Virus record (IMG/VR): IMGVR_UViG_3300024512_000011
Location: 1-23,589 of that record
DNA: 23,589 bases
From: a virus
Reading direction: 5' to 3' (one strand)
The stretch's first letter is position 1. Every line of letters begins with the position of its first letter. Of this stretch, positions 4,465 to 19,725 are shown one piece after another. The translations under genes and the position numbers were made by a program. Below the pieces are notes generated by a model. That model made no database searches. It saw only the letters and a program-made list of their open reading frames with translations, and was not told the origin of the DNA.

Positions 4465-5544
4465 TTAATCCAGTTTGAACAAGCGTTCCATCGGATACGA
4501 TTCGTAGACCGGCCTTCCATCTAGAGCCGGATTGCTTGGGTTCTTCGTCTGAACATAATAATATTTCAATTCTCCAGCCCTTGGAAGGAGATTGTGTCCG
4601 TAAGTAATCTTAAATCCTGTGCTTGCTGGAATGTCAGCTGAAAGATCACGGTAGGGCTGCATGAAACAACTAAATACGAATGTCACATCACAGAGCTTCT
4701 GGGCTACGGACGATCCAGAAGCGGGATCAACTTTGAAGAGAACTTCAGGAGGAGGATAACGCTTCGATTCTATTCCTTCAAACAGTAGTGATCCCTTTGG
4801 GTATCCGAAGAAATCGTACTGATTAACCTTGCCGAATCCCGAAACAACATTCTCAGCGAATACAATCTCGTAAGGAACGAAGTACCAAGTGAATTTAACC
4901 TTCTGCTTAACAATCCTAAGAACGATACCTCCACCGTTCTGATTGGTAGCTGGAAGGTCGTTGGGAACTGCACCGCTCTGAGTCTTAAAAGTGAACTGGC
5001 CTTGAGGGCTTGTTAGGAACTCAGTATTGGGCTCAGATTCAATATCGACGAATCTTAAGTATTCTCTCGGATCGGTAAAATTGACGAAGTTATCATTTAT
5101 GTCGTAGTACCATTTAACTTGCTGCTGCTTACCCTTTAGGTCCGTATCGTTCATTAGAAGATATGGACGAGGCTCAAATTGAACCGTCACCTTGTACTTC
5201 TGGTAGAAGACGAAGTCATAAATATAGTTGACTGATTTGTCACGCTGGTAATTCTCACCAAGACTTCTGCCAGCTGGCTGGATTCCTTCAATGTTTGTTA
5301 TCTTTGAAGCGAATAGCCAATCATAATATGGATGCGCTGCCGGGAGTCGCCTTACAAGCCTTCCAGTACCATCTCCAGCCTTATAGACGCTTCCAAGGAT
5401 ATCACTTACCAACGCTCCAAGATTAGCACGATCAATGATGAAATCCATCGTCGCAGCACCGCCATCGGTCTGAAACGATGCGCTGGATGGGCTAGTCCTG
5501 TCGATTAGCTCATAGAGATTTCTTGATGAAGGTTCAATTGCCAT
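4465..5544 (-). CDS. Putative distal tail / baseplate hub protein
   Basis: 359 aa. Its start shares the A of the tape-measure stop (TAATG), the place where distal-tail or hub proteins normally follow the tape measure in siphoviruses. The sequence alternates charged and aromatic beta-type segments (YIYDFVFYQKYKVTVQFEPR, VKFTWYFVPYEIVF) with no membrane segment, cysteine clusters or catalytic motif that I can recognise. The content is compatible with a structural protein with two or three beta domains. The function is inferred from order only, so hub versus other baseplate component is open. Confidence 0.45.
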   Translation of the reverse strand: MAIEPSSRNLYELIDRTSPSSASFQTDGGAATMDFIIDRANLGALVSDILGSVYKAGDGTGRLVRRLPAAHPYYDWLFASKITNIEGIQPAGRSLGENYQRDKSVNYIYDFVFYQKYKVTVQFEPRPYLLMNDTDLKGKQQQVKWYYDINDNFVNFTDPREYLRFVDIESEPNTEFLTSPQGQFTFKTQSGAVPNDLPATNQNGGGIVLRIVKQKVKFTWYFVPYEIVFAENVVSGFGKVNQYDFFGYPKGSLLFEGIESKRYPPPEVLFKVDPASGSSVAQKLCDVTFVFSCFMQPYRDLSADIPASTGFKITYGHNLLPRAGELKYYYVQTKNPSNPALDGRPVYESYPMERLFKLD

Positions 5545-7016
5545 TATCGAACCCCTTGCTGAGGTGCATTCTCTCTTCCTTGCCCTAAGAACCAGCCAAC
5601 CATCTTTCCTATGCCTTCAGCCATGATCTTTGTGTTGTTGGCGGTTTGCAATGCTGCATTTTGCTGAGATTGACCGAATGCAGCTTGCATCATATTCTTT
5701 CCAAGATCGGCTATGCCTGAATATGATGCCTGCTTTGCTGCTGCTCCAAATGATCCACCTTGGCCACCAACTGGCATTGGCTTTTGGCCTTCTATAAGTC
5801 CATCAACCACCCTCTTGAATTCTTGTCCACTTCTTGCAGCACTTTCAGCAACAGCTTCTGAAGCTGCCCTTATTGAATCAGCCTTCGACTTGCTGACCCA
5901 GCTTACAACCCATTCGGCTGCATCCATTATTGCAACTGTGACTATTTTAATTGCAGTCATAAATAGGTGAACCACTCCAACTACGATTTGCAATGCAGTT
6001 GAAAGCGAGTCGAAAGCCATTGAGATTACTGGTGCGCCAACTGAAAATATTTCTGCAATATCCAAAAAGAGAGGGGCTATTGACTCAAGTACAGGAATTA
6101 ACGCCCAAATTGCTTTTGCCCATAAAGCTATAACCGGGATTGCTATTTTAACCATAGCATTCCCGAATTGGCTCATCACGGGAGCCAGAGTTTGCATTAT
6201 TGGAAGAAGTGCATCAGCAAAAGCCCTGACTATCGGAATTGCTGCTTGAATTATCGGCCTTAATCCCATCCCGACAACCGCCATCAAATCTTGAAACGCA
6301 AGTGCCAATTGCCCCATTAGCGCAGGGTCTAACATTGCAACGAATTTTGATGCGAAATTCGTTATGGACATGAATGCGTTCGGTATGCCCTCCAAGGACT
6401 TTGCAACCGACATGAATATTTGACCGTAATCTATTTTTTCTCCACTAATAGCCTTCTTAAATACATCAATAATTCCAGCAACTGGTTTCGATATAGCCTT
6501 TGAAAATCCAACAACGGCAGTGAATATTCCACCTTTAAGAGAATCAAGCAAGGAGTTTATTCCTGACTTTGCATCCCTTTCGCTATCACCTCCACCTCCA
6601 CCTTTTTTATTGGAAATCAACTTTTTAATTGCAGCCAAAAGTTTTTCACAGCAGTCCGAATCTGCTAGCGAATTGAAATTCATGTTGCTTGCTTTAAGTG
6701 ATTTCCAAAGAACAGATTGTATGTCAAGAAGACTTCTTGAAATGTTCTCAAGAAGTGCTGACTGATACAGCAATTCGCTTAAAACTGCTCCAAAAGATGC
6801 TGGGCCAGAACCTGACATTTGGATTTGAGAAACTATATTGTTACCAACCATTACTAAAGTTGAATCTAGGTCAGAAAAATTTCTATTTATTTCAGCAGTT
6901 AAATTGGTAATACCGACATCAATAAAATCCAGACTAATTTGAGAATTGTAAGTAAAATCACGAATCTCGCTGGCTAGATCAGCTATCCTCTCTAGATTCT
7001 CCGCTGGAGTCGCCAT
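5544..7016 (-). CDS. Tail tape measure protein
   Basis: 490 aa. It lies directly after the frameshifting chaperone pair, the standard position. The N-terminal 135 residues are helical and polar, a GGGGG linker lies near residues 139-143, and residues about 230-375 form a long Ala/Ile/Val/Pro-rich hydrophobic stretch with repeated PIV/PIM/PVI units that could make several membrane-active helices. The C-terminus (380-490) is Gln/Ala-rich. Tape measure proteins set tail length and help DNA cross the membrane. At about 1.5 angstrom per residue, 490 residues predict a short tail of roughly 70 nm. GGGAG lies upstream of the ATG, and the start overlaps the end of the chaperone frame by 38 bases. Confidence 0.8.
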   Translation of the reverse strand: MATPAENLERIADLASEIRDFTYNSQISLDFIDVGITNLTAEINRNFSDLDSTLVMVGNNIVSQIQMSGSGPASFGAVLSELLYQSALLENISRSLLDIQSVLWKSLKASNMNFNSLADSDCCEKLLAAIKKLISNKKGGGGGDSERDAKSGINSLLDSLKGGIFTAVVGFSKAISKPVAGIIDVFKKAISGEKIDYGQIFMSVAKSLEGIPNAFMSITNFASKFVAMLDPALMGQLALAFQDLMAVVGMGLRPIIQAAIPIVRAFADALLPIMQTLAPVMSQFGNAMVKIAIPVIALWAKAIWALIPVLESIAPLFLDIAEIFSVGAPVISMAFDSLSTALQIVVGVVHLFMTAIKIVTVAIMDAAEWVVSWVSKSKADSIRAASEAVAESAARSGQEFKRVVDGLIEGQKPMPVGGQGGSFGAAAKQASYSGIADLGKNMMQAAFGQSQQNAALQTANNTKIMAEGIGKMVGWFLGQGRENAPQQGVR

Positions 7017-7299
7017 GTCTATTCTCCCACGCTGCTTCTAGCTCTTGAATCGACTTTCCAAAGGCAAGACCCATCTCGAAGAACTGCTGCCTTGCAAGCG
7101 ATTCATTCTCTCCAAAATGCGGATCAATCTTCAGTGGTACGCCAGTCTTCTTATTCCTTGGCCTGTAATATATAAGCGACACTTGCCTCATAGTCAGCTT
7201 GGCCACTTGATCCATCGACAAGCAGTATGGCTCATCAACCAATCCAGCAATAAGCTGTGGCCAATTTGGCGTTATGTCTTCGCCTCCTGAGCCTTGGCC
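6979..7299 (-). CDS. Tail assembly chaperone, second (GT-type) part, reached by -1 frameshift
   Basis: This frame encodes GQGSGGEDITPNWPQLIAGL, then VDEPYCLSMDQVAKLTMRQV and YYRPRNKKTGVP, which resembles the T domain of tail-assembly chaperones (pattern IAGLV-DPYCLT-DQ-LT-RQ). It contains no ATG that fits: the first in-frame start codon is a TTG at 7242, inside the conserved block. The frame is open only from 7326, just upstream of the GGGAAAG heptamer, and is in the -1 register relative to the preceding chaperone. It is therefore best read as the tail of a 249-residue fusion made of chaperone residues 1-143 plus 106 residues from here. Such G-GT proteins load the tape measure and recruit tube subunits. 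Confidence 0.78.
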   Translation of the reverse strand, partial: GQGSGGEDITPNWPQLIAGLVDEPYCLSMDQVAKLTMRQVSLIYYRPRNKKTGVPLKIDPHFGENESLARQQFFEMGLAFGKSIQELEAAWENRHGDSSGESREDS

Positions 7300-7727
7300 T
7301 TTCCCATTGCAACAGGGAATGACCTCTCAACAACCATCTCTACTAGCGAAGAAATCTCTGAATTTTCATTGATTAGCGTACTTGCATCATTGGCTGAAAT
7401 GCCAGCTAAAATTGAAAACAGGGTGGAGATTCCCCACAATGTCCTGAGCAATTCAGATGACTTTTTACCACCGAATACGAATTCACCGTTCTTGATTGAT
7501 TCGATGACTTCAGCGATCTGCTTATCGTATTCTTCCTTATCAAGGAATTCCTTGTACTCACGAATCTTCTCAAGCGACTTGCGCTCAAAAGCCCTTTCAA
7601 GCTCAGATTGCTTCTCAAGAGTCAGAAGAGAAATCTTGTACTTATTCCCCTTGGAGCATACCCATTCGATAGCTCCTCCAGACTGTCCAATGGAATCGGA
7701 GAGGGTGTGGATTCCCATTTCAATCAT
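7272..7727 (-). CDS. Tail assembly chaperone, first (G-type) part
   Basis: 151 aa. It is helical and charged (LEKQSELERAFERKSLEKI, EYDKQIAEVIESI) with a hydrophobic C-terminal half, lying between the tail-tube genes and the tape measure, where the lambda gpG equivalent lies. The start ATG at 7727 overlaps the preceding stop as ATGA. An in-frame ATG at 7718 has a better-spaced AAAGGA and may be the true start. The slippery heptamer falls at codons 142-143, eight residues before the TAA, so most ribosomes make this short form and a minority should shift into the second part. Sequence homology to gpG cannot be shown by eye; order, size and the frameshift carry the call. Confidence 0.75.
   Translation of the reverse strand: MIEMGIHTLSDSIGQSGGAIEWVCSKGNKYKISLLTLEKQSELERAFERKSLEKIREYKEFLDKEEYDKQIAEVIESIKNGEFVFGGKKSSELLRTLWGISTLFSILAGISANDASTLINENSEISSLVEMVVERSFPVAMGKAKAQEAKT
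7299..7305 (-). promoter_or_regulatory. Programmed -1 ribosomal frameshift site GGGAAAG
   Basis: The codons ATG GGA AAG read as G GGA AAG, the X XXY YYZ slippery pattern and the same heptamer used by phage lambda in its G-GT genes. Slipping back one base leads straight into the frame that encodes the second chaperone part, which is open past the zero-frame stop. Downstream, GGCCAA and TTGGCC could pair, with GGCG and CGCC as an inner stem, a possible stimulatory structure. That pairing was found by eye and not energy-tested. Confidence 0.82.
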
Positions 7728-8239
7728 CCTTTCGGGTGGGGTGCGTAATCAACTTCCGTAGACAAGCAAGCAAATTCTATATCGTATTCTAGCAGATTTC
7801 TGACTGAGTTATCGTAATTGGTGCTGATAACTACTGAATTGGTAATTTGGAACAATGTGCGTTTCTGGCCAGCTTGATTGGTGTATTTGATTTCCAACTT
7901 GCCCTTTTCGTTAATGATCGGCACTCTTGGACCGTCATTGATACTTAGAGTATTATCTAGGAATAGATAACCGTGAATCGTTACTTTGGTTTCACGCATC
8001 CCGCCATTAAGCATCTGCATTGGGATGCCATAATTTTTCCACGCTGGAACGGCAGATAAATCGCCATTGACTATATTGCCTTCAATATTGGCATCACGGA
8101 GCGATTTGATATTGGAGATGTGAATAGACTCGTCCTCAATCTCAATGCCCCATTCATCGGCAAAGAGAGTGAGGACGGTCCCCGGACGAGTCTCGGAAGT
8201 GAAGACAACGCCAGAACCCTTACCTGAATAGAAGGGCAT
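7724..8239 (-). CDS. Tail tube-like protein, second copy
   Basis: 171 aa. It begins FYSGKGSGVVF, continues to a DEWGIEIEDE motif near residue 30, and ends in a beta-rich region (VTIHGYLFLDN, KYTNQAGQKRTLF, LLEYDIEFACL). The next gene upstream begins YYAGKTGFVTV with EEWSMELEVEE near residue 25, so the two look like paralogues of one tail-tube fold. A GAGGA site lies seven bases before the ATG, and the stop overlaps the chaperone start as ATGA. It could be the main tube subunit, a tube initiator or a minor tube protein. The order (tube before chaperone) supports a tube role. Confidence 0.52.
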   Translation of the reverse strand: MPFYSGKGSGVVFTSETRPGTVLTLFADEWGIEIEDESIHISNIKSLRDANIEGNIVNGDLSAVPAWKNYGIPMQMLNGGMRETKVTIHGYLFLDNTLSINDGPRVPIINEKGKLEIKYTNQAGQKRTLFQITNSVVISTNYDNSVRNLLEYDIEFACLSTEVDYAPHPKG

Positions 8240-8251
8240 GGCTTATCCTCA

Positions 8252-8677
8252 TTACGCCTGAGCGATGGTCTGATTCTGGGCAGCTTGAATCACACCGCTA
8301 TTGTCCATGTTTGTTAGCGTTCCAGTGAATTCAAAGGTCGGCTTTTCACGGACATTGTTGCCTACTGTCACACCAGTAAGAATCACGCTAAGCGAGAATC
8401 CAATAGTGCCAGTCTGCAATAAACCAAGCTCAACAGGAACAACCGTACCAGCTTGGAAAGTAGTCAGAACTCCAGCGTCAGCAATACTCTCATACGGTCC
8501 AGAAGCAGAGATAGTGCCACCCCTGATACCAGACATAATCGAGTTCATGCCATAGGATTCAAAGTTAGTGGCATCAACTTCTTCAACCTCAAGCTCCATA
8601 CTCCACTCTTCAAGAGGGATGCGGACGGCAGGCGATCCAACAGTAACGAATCCAGTCTTACCAGCGTAATAAGCCAT
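8252..8677 (-). CDS. Major tail (tube) protein candidate
   Basis: 141 aa. The sequence reads as an all-beta protein with the tube-like opening YYAGKTGFVTVGSP, EEWSMELEVEEVDATNFES, a central GIRGGTISASGPYES, and a strand-rich end (KPTFEFTGTLTNM). A strong GGAGG, placed inside the end of the preceding gene, lies nine bases before the ATG, the best Shine-Dalgarno of this block, as expected for an abundant tube subunit. It sits between the tail-terminator candidate region and the chaperones. Assignment rests on size, order, predicted beta content and similarity to the next gene; no signature motif is diagnostic. Confidence 0.55.
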   Translation of the reverse strand: MAYYAGKTGFVTVGSPAVRIPLEEWSMELEVEEVDATNFESYGMNSIMSGIRGGTISASGPYESIADAGVLTTFQAGTVVPVELGLLQTGTIGFSLSVILTGVTVGNNVREKPTFEFTGTLTNMDNSGVIQAAQNQTIAQA

Positions 8678-14689: not shown

Positions 14690-15754
14690 TTTAGCAATAA
14701 CAGTCTTAGCCCTCTTGATTCTGTTAGCTCTTTCAGTAGCAGTCTCATTCGACAATTCGTCGGAATCCAATAACATTCCAGAGGATGGATCGAGGAGATG
14801 ATGCCACTGAAGGACTTCTCCCTTTTTCAGCCTTGAATGCGCTATATTCCATCTACGCACACCAACCGCCAGAATTTGCCTATCCCTTGATGCGCTGGAA
14901 AACCATTCATTGAAAACCTGTGCGTTGGGAATAATCCTTCCCTTAAAATCATAGAATTTATTAGAAAATGAGGCCAAAATAGGAGTTAGCCAGCAACGGC
15001 AGTTGAATGCCGTAGAACCATCTGCCTCTAGTGGCGGGTTCGGCATCTCGTCCATTCCAAGCTGCCCATAGCGTGGATTCCTGAAATAGATGTTGCCATT
15101 CCGCTCCCGGTGGGCTGGCCTAATCCTTTCGTCTAGAATTCCGTGAACTTGAAATCCAACTAGATCACGGGGCAGTGCGCCATAATTTTCTAGGCGAACT
15201 TGTCCCATCATGGCAGCAACATTCGTTCTAGTTACTGTATAGGCTGTATTTCGCAGCATCCTGAAGTAGTTTGCGACCAAAGATGCCCTAATAGCCGGAT
15301 CACGCTGAATTGCCACAACTTGGGCATAAGCTTGAGGAGTCATCCTCGTTTTCTGCATAGCCTTTAGTATTCTTGCGGGAACATTCTGATTCCTTACAAT
15401 CCTGTCAATAATTTCCTTGGGAATTTGACCGAAAACCTGTCGTACAATAGATTTGCGTGATTCCTCAATATCTTTTCCAAGGATGGCATTTCTAAGTATT
15501 TTGACTACATTTCTGGAGTGTTTCTGTAAGAAGTAAGGTGCTTTATTCCTTACAATTTCGTCAACTTCTCTGTAGACAATTGTCAACTGATACTGGATTT
15601 TCTCGATTGATGAAAGATTATCGGATTTCGACGCATCCCGCATTCGCCTATCAATGGACGCTCCAACGAGACGAGCTACTCGAATCGAGTCATAAATTGA
15701 CTCAATCTGCTCAACGCCAAGTCGGGCAGCTAGGATTTCGTTGAGTCTGTCCAT
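14684..15754 (-). CDS. Head morphogenesis protein, Mu gpF-like
   Basis: 356 aa. The N-terminal 160 residues are helical and charged. The signature lies at about 165-260: NTAYTVTRTNVAAMMGQVRL, GFQVHGILDERIRPAHRERNG (H215) and FNCRCWLTPI (251-258), the conserved parts of Mu gpF/SPP1 gp7-type minor head proteins, which interact with the portal and DNA during packaging. It ends with a basic region NRIKRAKTVIAKV. It overlaps the end of the ParB-type gene by 25 bases and follows portal order. The family is recognised from the motif; the specific role in this phage is inferred. Confidence 0.8.
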   Translation of the reverse strand: MDRLNEILAARLGVEQIESIYDSIRVARLVGASIDRRMRDASKSDNLSSIEKIQYQLTIVYREVDEIVRNKAPYFLQKHSRNVVKILRNAILGKDIEESRKSIVRQVFGQIPKEIIDRIVRNQNVPARILKAMQKTRMTPQAYAQVVAIQRDPAIRASLVANYFRMLRNTAYTVTRTNVAAMMGQVRLENYGALPRDLVGFQVHGILDERIRPAHRERNGNIYFRNPRYGQLGMDEMPNPPLEADGSTAFNCRCWLTPILASFSNKFYDFKGRIIPNAQVFNEWFSSASRDRQILAVGVRRWNIAHSRLKKGEVLQWHHLLDPSSGMLLDSDELSNETATERANRIKRAKTVIAKV

Positions 15755-16956
15755 TCCGCTACTCTGATTGGTGGATCGACCTTTTCACGATTCTGATGAC
15801 TTCTGCTTGGATAAGCAAAGTAGCTTTGAAGAATTATCTCGATATTCATCGGGTCAGGCTCTGCTGCCATGATCTGGGAGTACCATCCAAAGGTGCAGAG
15901 TCTGACAAGAAGGCCCGTATTCGCAGACGGAATTATAAATGTCGGTATGAACTTGTCCTTGAATCCTTTCCCACGAACCGCAGCAAAAAGATACTGAGCC
16001 GATTTCCTGTAGATCACAGATCCATCCACTGGCGAAGGATATTCGTCCAGATTGATTGCCGGTTCTTTGCCTTTATACTTCTTCTCTGAATCAAAATGAT
16101 TCTTGAAGTGCGCCAGTGGTTCTTGCTTCTCTTTACTGTGGAATGTCACAATCTGGGCGTTATCGCCATTGGATACCGTATAAAGCCCCTTGACGCTTCC
16201 AGATTGAAGCAGCTTGCACATCAAGGCCGGATCATTGTTGGTAAATGTCCATCCCTCGTCTATTTCAATAAATTTTGAAAGATAGTCATAAGCTAAATAG
16301 TCGTTTTCTATTGCCCTTGGAGCGTTGGCAAATAGTTTGTAGTATTTTTTACCTTCACGCTTTGTATTTTTGTTAACTGTGTCGATGAATATTTGATCCT
16401 TGTAGCTTCCGCAGTAAATGTAGCTTCCAGCCCTTAAACGCCATACATCTCCCGGCTTGACTCCGAATAATCCTTCTCCGCTCTTTAGCTTTTCCCTGCG
16501 CTCTTTTTCGGCCCTTTCAGCCTCTTCACGCTTCTTATCCTCGTCTTCAAATATTTCAGATGATTCGTTTATTTCGTTTGAATCTGCGAAGATATTGGTT
16601 TCGTCAGAGAATGTTGACAGGAGGTCATTTAGGATTTTTTCGTCAATCTTCGCCATTGATCCGATGGCATCGTAAGAGGCTAGGATTTTGTTTCCTTCCT
16701 CTTCATTTACATCAAGAATTAGCACTGGGACTTCGGAATCGCCACACTCCGCTGCCCTCATATGACCATCCAGAAGGACAAGCTGCCCATCCTGTTCACG
16801 GCATAGCAATGCCCCAGCGAATCCGATCTCTTGGAGCGTCTTTCGTAGTGCTTTTTTCTGTGGCTCTGGATGCACTCTATGATTCAATGGATTGGCCAGA
16901 AGTTCGCTGGCCTTGATCCTCTTGAATTCCTTTATCCTATCTTTGAACTGAATCAT
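15730..16956 (-). CDS. ParB-like protein fused to a degenerate (probably inactive) methyltransferase-like domain
   Basis: 408 aa. The start at 16956 is preferred: it forms an ATGA overlap with the upstream stop and has GAGG seven bases before it, while an earlier ATG at 16986 would overlap more. Residues 5-110 are a ParB/Srx-type domain (RIKASELLANPLNHRVHP, LLDGHMRAAECGDSEVPVLI). A charged helical linker (136-160) leads to VKPGDVWRLRAGSYIYCGS, as in ParB-methylase fusions (xxPGDVWxLGxHRLxCGD). The expected DPPY and FxGxG motifs appear as NAPR (211-214) and SANTG (344-348), followed by MAAEPDPMNIEIILQSYFA, similar to the closing MEIDPxYCDVxIxRW of such enzymes. It is probably a former DNA methyltransferase kept as a DNA-binding or structural protein. 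Confidence 0.62.
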   Translation of the reverse strand: MIQFKDRIKEFKRIKASELLANPLNHRVHPEPQKKALRKTLQEIGFAGALLCREQDGQLVLLDGHMRAAECGDSEVPVLILDVNEEEGNKILASYDAIGSMAKIDEKILNDLLSTFSDETNIFADSNEINESSEIFEDEDKKREEAERAEKERREKLKSGEGLFGVKPGDVWRLRAGSYIYCGSYKDQIFIDTVNKNTKREGKKYYKLFANAPRAIENDYLAYDYLSKFIEIDEGWTFTNNDPALMCKLLQSGSVKGLYTVSNGDNAQIVTFHSKEKQEPLAHFKNHFDSEKKYKGKEPAINLDEYPSPVDGSVIYRKSAQYLFAAVRGKGFKDKFIPTFIIPSANTGLLVRLCTFGWYSQIMAAEPDPMNIEIILQSYFAYPSRSHQNREKVDPPIRVAEWTDSTKS

Positions 16957-17165
16957 TTTTCCTCTTCTTTGAAAGCATCGGCGCACTTAGAGCAAGTAGA
17001 TAAATGATTCTTTAGTTTAATTTCTACACGCTCTTTTTCCAGCTTCGCTTCCAGATTGTCTGGTTGATGCGAAACTAATTCCATTAACGATCCAAGACGA
17101 ATGATGTTCCAAGCTGTATCTTGGCATACATCCAATGGATCGACATCTTTATTTACTTCAATCAT
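16953..17165 (-). CDS. Small HxxxCxxC zinc-finger-like protein
   Basis: 70 aa. The C-terminus LKNHLSTCSKCADAF has H54, C58 and C61 in H-x3-C-x2-C spacing, the pattern of anti-sigma-type (zf-HC2) zinc fingers. C14 could be the fourth ligand, as in RsrA-like proteins. The rest is helical and acidic. It is joined to the portal and the ParB-type gene by ATGA overlaps on both sides. With no membrane segment and only one finger, it could bind a host sigma factor or another phage protein. This is suggested by spacing alone. Confidence 0.5.
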   Translation of the reverse strand: MIEVNKDVDPLDVCQDTAWNIIRLGSLMELVSHQPDNLEAKLEKERVEIKLKNHLSTCSKCADAFKEEEK

Positions 17166-19285
17166 TTCTTTTTATCCGCTGCGTCCATCTGGTTAGCGAC
17201 CTTGTTGGCCCATGACTTTCCAGAGTCACCGCCCCACAGTAGCCATGCAATATATCCGGCTGAATCCTTGCCCCATCCCTCGCCCTTCTTATCGACTTCG
17301 TGACGGGCAAAGTAGCTGACCATCCGCTTAATTGTGGAAGGCGACAGTTCTGCGCCATTCATCAGATCACGGGCACGGGCCACTCCAACCCCAGTACCTC
17401 CACGCCCATGCTTCTTCCTCAATTCTAGTCCACGCTTTGCAGCCTTTCTGACGGATTGAGGCGGGGTGAAGGTGATATGGGAATACTTTCCGTCCTTGGA
17501 TTCCGCAACTGGCTGGACTTCTGGAACCGCATCGAATTCTGGTGGAGCTTCCGGCTCGGCTTGATCGGATGACCGTCCAGTGGAATGAGGAGGCAACTTT
17601 TGGGAGCCAGCAAGCGATTCTGGGAAGATGGCGTTAATGTCCTCTTCTGCCATCAGCGGGAATGCAGCCTTGGCGATAGAACGGCCAACTTCAACAGGAA
17701 TCTGCCCTGTAGCCACCCGCATGACGATTCCAACAAGATTCTCGATTTGTAGACCGTTGAGAGCGGAGTCGGACACTTGAGCGTCACCCTCTCCACCAAG
17801 AGAATCATTCGCCATCTTCTCGGCTTGCTGCTCGATATTGCGCTGCTCTGCGTCGAAGTTCAGACCGATTTCCTGAGTGATGGTCTGGGCCGATTTGATC
17901 CCCATAGCCATGTAGGTCTGGTTGGCTTGCGAATCGGCAATCTTGTCACGGGCTTCGACAGCTGGAGGAGTCACAAGGACATCCACCACATCTAGAATAT
18001 TGATTGGCAGATTGCCCATCTCCGCTGCTGTTCTAATTGCTTCACGGGCAATCCGTGTAAAATGCTTCTTGTAGAAGGTTTGCAATCGAACGCAGTTACG
18101 GAGGAACGGCGATTCTGCCGTTAAGGACGATGCGTAGTTCGCACCAGCGATATTCGCTGAAGATAGCCATTCGGGGGCGTTATGCCTATTTCCAGCTGAA
18201 CGGAGTAGACTTTGAAATATCTCTAAATGATCTTTTGCGCCACTTGCACCCGGAGGAGCGACATAATTCATGCCCTTCGGAATATCCAGAAATGTTCCGG
18301 GCTCAATTTTCTGGTAGTCCGTCTGCCGTCCATTGGGAGATGACGCAACAGAGTAATCCACCATCTCATCCACAAACGATTCAACTTGTGCAGCAGATGC
18401 CGTATCATGCTGGCGAACCGCAGCAATGGCAGACTGCACGGATGCCCCTTCCCCAAGGTTTTTCCGCAGCTTGGACGCAATGCTGAATGTGTCGAGAGTC
18501 TCGTAGCTGAAGTCGCTCAATCCACGCTTGATTGCTTTCGGCACATTGCATTTGACATGGACGATACGGTCAGCGTTGACCATTTCTCCTGTCGAGGCAT
18601 CCTTCTGCGCCTCGTCCTGTTCTTCTCCCCTTGGAGCGTTGTAGTCCACATAATATGAGCGGATATTGAATACATCGTCTGGATCAGTTTCGATTCCGTA
18701 AGACCAATGGGAGAAGTCTTCTCCCGGCGGTTGCATAATCTGTTCTGGCTCAATGGTGCGTACCAATAACCGTCCAGAAGGCTGGGGGAATAAACGGAGG
18801 AAGCATTCTCCATCGGTGCGGGAACGCTTGAAGATTTCCTCCTCCATCATCGTCCAGTCATTCTCGTTGAGGAAGCGGTCGAGAATGTCTTGGCAGCGAC
18901 GAACGGTCGATTCGTCAATGTCTATAGTGCCCTTCGGAGCAATTCTGTAATTGAATCCGCCCCCAATGACATAGCTGCATAGTCCGTTAAGGAGTCCAAT
19001 TGCATTTGGATTGGTAGTGGTAACCAGTCGAGCTTGAGCCCTAATAAGGCTAAGCTGTTGTTCGCTGTACCAAAATGGGTAATTGGAACCGTAGCGACGA
19101 TCATTTGGATTTGTGATAGGGTAAGAAAAAATCCCGCCATCACGAAAACGATCCAGCAGATCGACATAGTTGCCCAGCCAGAAATCGTTAGTAAGGACAT
19201 TTTCACGGATATTCCTCTTGACTACCTTGGGAGCGGATTCCCTTGGAGGAAGGAGAAAGTTGATGATTTTCTGCCAAGTAGTCAT
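17162..19285 (-). CDS. Portal protein with C-terminal phage module
   Basis: 707 aa. The portal part includes NPFWYSEQQLSLIRAQARL-like helices at 80-110, TNPNAIGLLNGLCSYVIGGG, RTDGECFLRLFPQ, RTIEPEQIMQPP, NAPEWLSSANIAGANYASSL and TAESPFLRNCVRLQTFYKKH, the pattern of lambda/HK97-type portals, the ring through which DNA enters the head. The final 109 residues (599-707) are a separate conserved module: KAAKRGLELRKKHGRGGTGV, VARARDLMNGAELSPSTIKR, MVSYFARHEVDKKG, AGYIAWLLWGGDSGKSWANK. From memory it also appears on other phage head proteins, with no function known. ATGA overlaps link it to HNH and the zinc-finger gene. Confidence 0.78.
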   Translation of the reverse strand: MTTWQKIINFLLPPRESAPKVVKRNIRENVLTNDFWLGNYVDLLDRFRDGGIFSYPITNPNDRRYGSNYPFWYSEQQLSLIRAQARLVTTTNPNAIGLLNGLCSYVIGGGFNYRIAPKGTIDIDESTVRRCQDILDRFLNENDWTMMEEEIFKRSRTDGECFLRLFPQPSGRLLVRTIEPEQIMQPPGEDFSHWSYGIETDPDDVFNIRSYYVDYNAPRGEEQDEAQKDASTGEMVNADRIVHVKCNVPKAIKRGLSDFSYETLDTFSIASKLRKNLGEGASVQSAIAAVRQHDTASAAQVESFVDEMVDYSVASSPNGRQTDYQKIEPGTFLDIPKGMNYVAPPGASGAKDHLEIFQSLLRSAGNRHNAPEWLSSANIAGANYASSLTAESPFLRNCVRLQTFYKKHFTRIAREAIRTAAEMGNLPINILDVVDVLVTPPAVEARDKIADSQANQTYMAMGIKSAQTITQEIGLNFDAEQRNIEQQAEKMANDSLGGEGDAQVSDSALNGLQIENLVGIVMRVATGQIPVEVGRSIAKAAFPLMAEEDINAIFPESLAGSQKLPPHSTGRSSDQAEPEAPPEFDAVPEVQPVAESKDGKYSHITFTPPQSVRKAAKRGLELRKKHGRGGTGVGVARARDLMNGAELSPSTIKRMVSYFARHEVDKKGEGWGKDSAGYIAWLLWGGDSGKSWANKVANQMDAADKKK

Positions 19286-19725
19286 GCTATTCCCCTTCGC
19301 CTTCTAGCTTTCTGTGTTTCGTTCTGGCATATTCGGCAACATATCTTTGCCGTTCCATCTTTTTGTGGCCTAATTCTCATATTTTCCCTGTTCCATTTAT
19401 GCCCATTGGCGCAAGTATTATTTCTGTGGGCTTCCATTGTCTTGCTTTTTCCACGCCTTGAATTTTCACCAACTGTTACAACTTCCATATGCGCTGGGTT
19501 TACACAGGATTTGTTTCTGCAAGTGTGGTCAATAACTTTTTCTTCTGATATTTTTCCAATAATCATTTCATAAAAAAATCTATGAGCCCTTTTATTTTTG
19601 TAATTTATTGTTAATTGGCCATATCCACTAACACCCTTACTTCCAACCCAATTCCAACAACCTTCAGCAGATGTCGCTTTGACATTTGCCCAAATCCTCT
19701 TCATTCTTGTATCTTCAGAAATCAT
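19282..19725 (-). CDS. HNH endonuclease between terminase and portal
   Basis: 147 aa. The motif CWNWVGSKGVSGYGQL, then RAHRFFYEMIIGKI, VIDHTCRNKSCVNPAHMEVV (H67, C69, C74, N76, H79) matches HNH_3-type nucleases. A C-terminal zinc cluster (C105 to H109, C130, C133) and a basic tail RRRRGIA follow. It is coupled by ATGA overlaps to terL and portal. In HK97-like phages an HNH protein next to terminase is needed for packaging, so it may take part in cutting; it could also be a selfish homing nuclease. Its coding DNA is visibly richer in AT than both neighbours. Confidence 0.78.
   Translation of the reverse strand: MISEDTRMKRIWANVKATSAEGCWNWVGSKGVSGYGQLTINYKNKRAHRFFYEMIIGKISEEKVIDHTCRNKSCVNPAHMEVVTVGENSRRGKSKTMEAHRNNTCANGHKWNRENMRIRPQKDGTAKICCRICQNETQKARRRRGIA

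Follow-up and report, generated by a model that had tools for sequence, protein, structure and literature searches.

A putative lambda-type programmed -1 frameshift in the tail chaperone-like genes of an uncultivated phage lineage

Frameshifted tail chaperones are already known to be widespread, and G_GGA_AAG is familiar as the lambda slippery site. Frameshift signals of the dnaX type consist of A_AAA_AAG and a downstream stem-loop. The frameshift that joins the lambda tail assembly chaperones gpG and gpGT, and the roles of the two proteins, have been described (PMC5009743; Levin 1993, Xu 2004 and Xu 2013, as cited in PMC5009743). The lambda site G_GGA_AAG is shift-prone in E. coli, which may not be the host of the phage studied here (PMC5009743, PMC7618472). 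Stimulatory stems are spaced 5-9 nt downstream of the slip site (PMC7618472), and -1 shifts without a stimulator have been reported for certain tailed phages (PMC5009743).

The window (the whole stretch of DNA analysed, a virus record 23,589 bases long) carries its tail genes on the minus strand, and portal and terminase genes were also found. The order is a major-tail-protein-like gene (8252..8677, minus; phrog_1407, E 8.9e-5), a gene with only a weak tail match (7724-8239, minus), the two putative chaperone frames, and a tape measure protein gene (5544..7016, minus; phrog_305, E 2.5e-7), so that the location of the chaperone frames between the major tail and tape measure genes is common to lambda and the window. 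The upstream G-like ORF (7272..7727, minus; annotated from the ORF, its conservation and gene order) runs from an ATG to a TAA and encodes 151 residues. The T-like extension (6979..7298, minus; annotated from the open frame and a conserved PNWPQ motif) lies in the -1 frame and would be read after slippage. This frame is preceded by a TGA at 7329-7327, is open from 7326 to its stop at 6979, and is overlapped at its end by 38 nt of the tape measure gene. Among the relatives described below, L048 has the gene order of the window, a tape measure match is present in L050 and a major-tail match in L069, and the tape measure gene lies downstream of the chaperone frames in several lineages.

The slippery heptamer G_GGA_AAG (7305..7299, minus) is read as ATG GGA AAG by the 151-residue ORF, which is the slip-prone register, and the distance from the heptamer to the end of the 0-frame stop codon is 34 nt. 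Frame analysis confines slippage to an overlap of 18 codons in which both frames are open (7272..7326, minus). A -1 slip at the heptamer predicts a fusion of 249 residues with the junction peptide ...VAMGKGQGSGGEDITPNWPQ... The register of the heptamer, the -1 phase, the opening of the second frame at 7326 and the length of the fusion had all been proposed in an earlier note and are borne out here; its identification of the heptamer with the lambda G-GT site agrees with the literature (PMC5009743, PMC7618472). On both strands of the window GGGAAAG occurs twice, once in register. Across 20 minus-strand window genes, in-register heptamers of the form X_XXY_YYZ (Y = A or T) are found at about one per thousand codons and in-register GGGAAAG once in total. 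At the rates given by these 20 genes, the probability of finding any in-register X_XXY_YYZ by chance within the 18-codon overlap is ~0.018, and that of finding in-register GGGAAAG is ~0.003.

The window was compared with 28 other IMG/VR contigs from about six lineages (29 contigs with the window). All 28 have both ORFs in the same -1 phase, with a slippery site in register where the two frames meet; the site is GGGAAAG in 17 (hence identical across 18 contigs including the window), AAAAAAG in three and CCCAAAAAAA in eight. Fifteen of these contigs form a close set of two clades in which the product of the upstream ORF is 92-99% (clade 1) or 64-66% (second clade) identical to that of the window. 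Conservation of heptamer and phase in relatives, the check suggested in the earlier note, was found throughout the close set: all 15 keep GGGAAAG, its register and the -1 phase, with predicted fusions of 238-249 residues. The codon that contains the first G of the heptamer varies among them (ATG, GTG or TCG), with the G always kept, and the linker 3' of the slip site differs between the two clades by a 3-nt gap that preserves both frames. In L032 (the same contig as L049) the site reads ACG GGA AAG. More distant relatives have other slippery sites at the corresponding position and in the same phase: GAA AAA AAG, or A_AAA_AAG, in L050-L052, and TAC CCA AAA AAA, that is, CCCAAAAAAA in register, in L064-L071. 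All distant relatives have their second ORF in the -1 phase, and their slip sites precede the end of the first ORF by 28-49 nt. The slippery site is thus kept or replaced in 28 contigs with both ORFs in the same phase, which supports programmed -1 frameshifting. L048 (3971-3992) contains GGGAAAG twice, 15 nt apart within the same overlap and both in register; either or both copies could be usable, giving slightly different fusions.

Both frames appear to be under selection as proteins. The pN/pS of the upstream ORF is 0.07-0.26 between the window and other lineages. Between the window and clade 2, it is 0.26 for the upstream ORF and 0.32 for the body of the -1 frame, with synonymous sites of the upstream ORF near saturation (pS 0.86); it is 0.06, from few sites, for the stretch of the -1 frame between its TTG and ATG codons. 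In the same comparison, the 11 codons that follow the 0-frame stop show few synonymous as well as few non-synonymous changes, too few for a pN/pS. The codons GGA AAG are invariant in the 16 sequences compared, and this constancy is notable because, of the 77 upstream codons that encode an invariant residue, only 16 (~20%) are themselves invariant. The PNWPQ motif, located directly after the 0-frame stop and 5' of the TTG and ATG codons of the second frame, is invariant in the alignment. The stretch after the 0-frame stop is therefore likely translated, even though it is preceded by no conserved start.

Taken from these sequence comparisons, a lambda-type programmed -1 frameshift yielding a G-like product of 151 residues and a GT-like fusion of 249 residues is very probable. 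The main alternative is that there are two genes, the second starting by translational coupling at TTG 7242, at ATG 7215 or, behind an AGGAGG, at ATA 7275, a weak start codon. TTG and ATG codons are indeed present in the second frame; the earlier note had stated that this frame has no ATG of its own, which was incorrect, as ATGs are present at 7215 and 7191. These two ATGs are inside the conserved domain, are not kept in all relatives (ATG 7215 is CTG in L068-L071), and no ribosome-binding-like sequence was seen by eye before either of them. Of the 15 close relatives, 12 have TTA in place of TTG 7242, rightly regarded in the note as a doubtful start; among the 12 is L003, whose upstream ORF product is 99% identical to that of the window. 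Among distant relatives, L071 has only TTG in the part listed, and L049 has an ATG and a later TTG. A perfect AGGAGG (7288-7283, minus) is found just 3' of the slip site, 7 nt before the ATA codon of the -1 frame; however, L006 has TTA at this position and most of the second clade has GTA, and since the ATA is not conserved the AGGAGG probably represents merely Gly-Gly linker codons. No start codon of the second frame is shared by all the contigs compared, and a separate start was rejected for this reason. Moreover, conserved coding begins 5' of the TTG and ATG codons, and a two-gene arrangement leaves the invariant or replaced slippery heptamer unexplained. A separate second gene is therefore very unlikely, as no start is conserved and TTG 7242 is lost even in a near-identical relative.

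The fusion could also be made by slippage of RNA polymerase instead of the ribosome, for which the runs of seven A in more distant relatives would be suitable; however, the homopolymers at the site in the window and its 17 GGGAAAG relatives are of three bases at most, and this origin is more improbable still. That a sequencing or assembly error, or decay into a pseudogene, split one ORF is conceivable, as the virus record comes from a public collection of contigs and is known as sequence only, but is already refuted by the relatives, with the same split in 29 contigs, each of which has a slippery site in register there, and purifying selection on both frames where measured, leaving it a negligible chance.

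The earlier note had also suggested that pairing of GGCCAA with TTGGCC, with an inner GGCG/CGCC, stimulates slippage. The pairing exists in the window, but its stem has the last base of the heptamer as its first paired base, rather than beginning 5-9 nt downstream. No covariation was detected for these pairs in 11 sequences, and four of the ten pairs are broken in at least four of the 11, the breaks being outside the nearest clade. The stem was consequently rejected as a stimulator: it begins inside the slippery site, does not covary and is not conserved. Larger folds of the window RNA are comparatively stable (z -3.9 for 107 nt and -3.2 for a 90-nt stretch; 5% quantile elsewhere -2.9) and are absent from the second clade; such a fold is at most a candidate element. 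Scans of the window for Rfam families and tRNAs gave no hits.

Most relatives with an A-rich site contain a strong stem-loop 4-8 nt 3' of the slip site (L052, L064, L066, L068), which is absent from the GGGAAAG lineages. The variable linker provides its 5' arm, and the IVAGL or LVAGL codons provide its 3' arm. The arms differ in sequence by lineage with pairing largely retained, and L066 pairs in another register. Covariation among seven distinct sequences did not exceed that of shuffles, and a stimulatory role of this stem-loop is a lead only.

The frameshift proposed for the window resembles that of lambda: the second ORF lies in the -1 phase and lacks a conserved start codon. The two differ in that the window proteins have no detectable sequence similarity to the reference families tested and the window phage is uncultivated; furthermore, A-rich sites, mostly followed by a hairpin, are found in the distant relatives. 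These sites (A_AAA_AAG in L050-L052, CCCAAAAAAA in L064-L071) are instead similar to the dnaX type, from which the window is distinguished by GGGAAAG, the lack of a supported stem-loop and a different gene. If the window behaves like lambda, the tail operon mRNA (minus strand) would yield mostly the 151-residue G-like chaperone, while a minority of ribosomes would slip back one base on G_GGA_AAG, pass the 0-frame stop and produce the GT-like fusion. The G part may cover the tape measure protein, and recruitment of tail-tube subunits may fall to the T part; how often ribosomes slip would fix the G:GT ratio. That slippage occurs, how frequent it is and what the chaperones do are inferred.

Sequence searches of Pfam, PHROGs and NCBIfam gave no significant match to either chaperone ORF, a phage reference collection contained no match to either, and no relative turned up in searches of genomes of bacteria and archaea. 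A PDB sequence search with the upstream ORF only gave no match. AlphaFold models of the chaperones were of low confidence (pLDDT 43 and 61), too uncertain for a fold search. The description of both frames as tail chaperones in the earlier note thus agrees with their position and the frameshift, which support a putative G/GT-like function, but not with any family match or, for the upstream ORF, structure match.

The window is a well-supported but ordinary example of a frameshifted tail chaperone; what appears new is an uncultivated lineage whose predicted chaperone proteins have no counterpart among the library families. In such a database-unmatched phage family, the two chaperone frames can be annotated correctly as one frameshifted gene, and the relatives provide a small natural series of changing slip sites with a retained product. 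Within this one chaperone family, the signal may, tentatively, have been exchanged as a unit between GGGAAAG without a conserved stimulator and an A-rich site with its downstream hairpin (L052, L064-L071), the fusion and probably its ratio being retained. The tandem GGGAAAG of L048 could be a variant of such an exchange.

Several other genes of the window were noted. A small ORF between the terminase and portal genes (19282-19725, minus) resembles an HNH endonuclease by eye. An ORF of 418 residues with a GTG start (15730-16986, minus) is flanked by the portal gene and by a gp7-like minor capsid gene, and its N-terminal part looks ParB-like by eye. The portal protein (17162-19285, minus) has a C-terminal extension, residues 600-698, that matches the functionally uncharacterised family phrog_2859 (E 1e-18).
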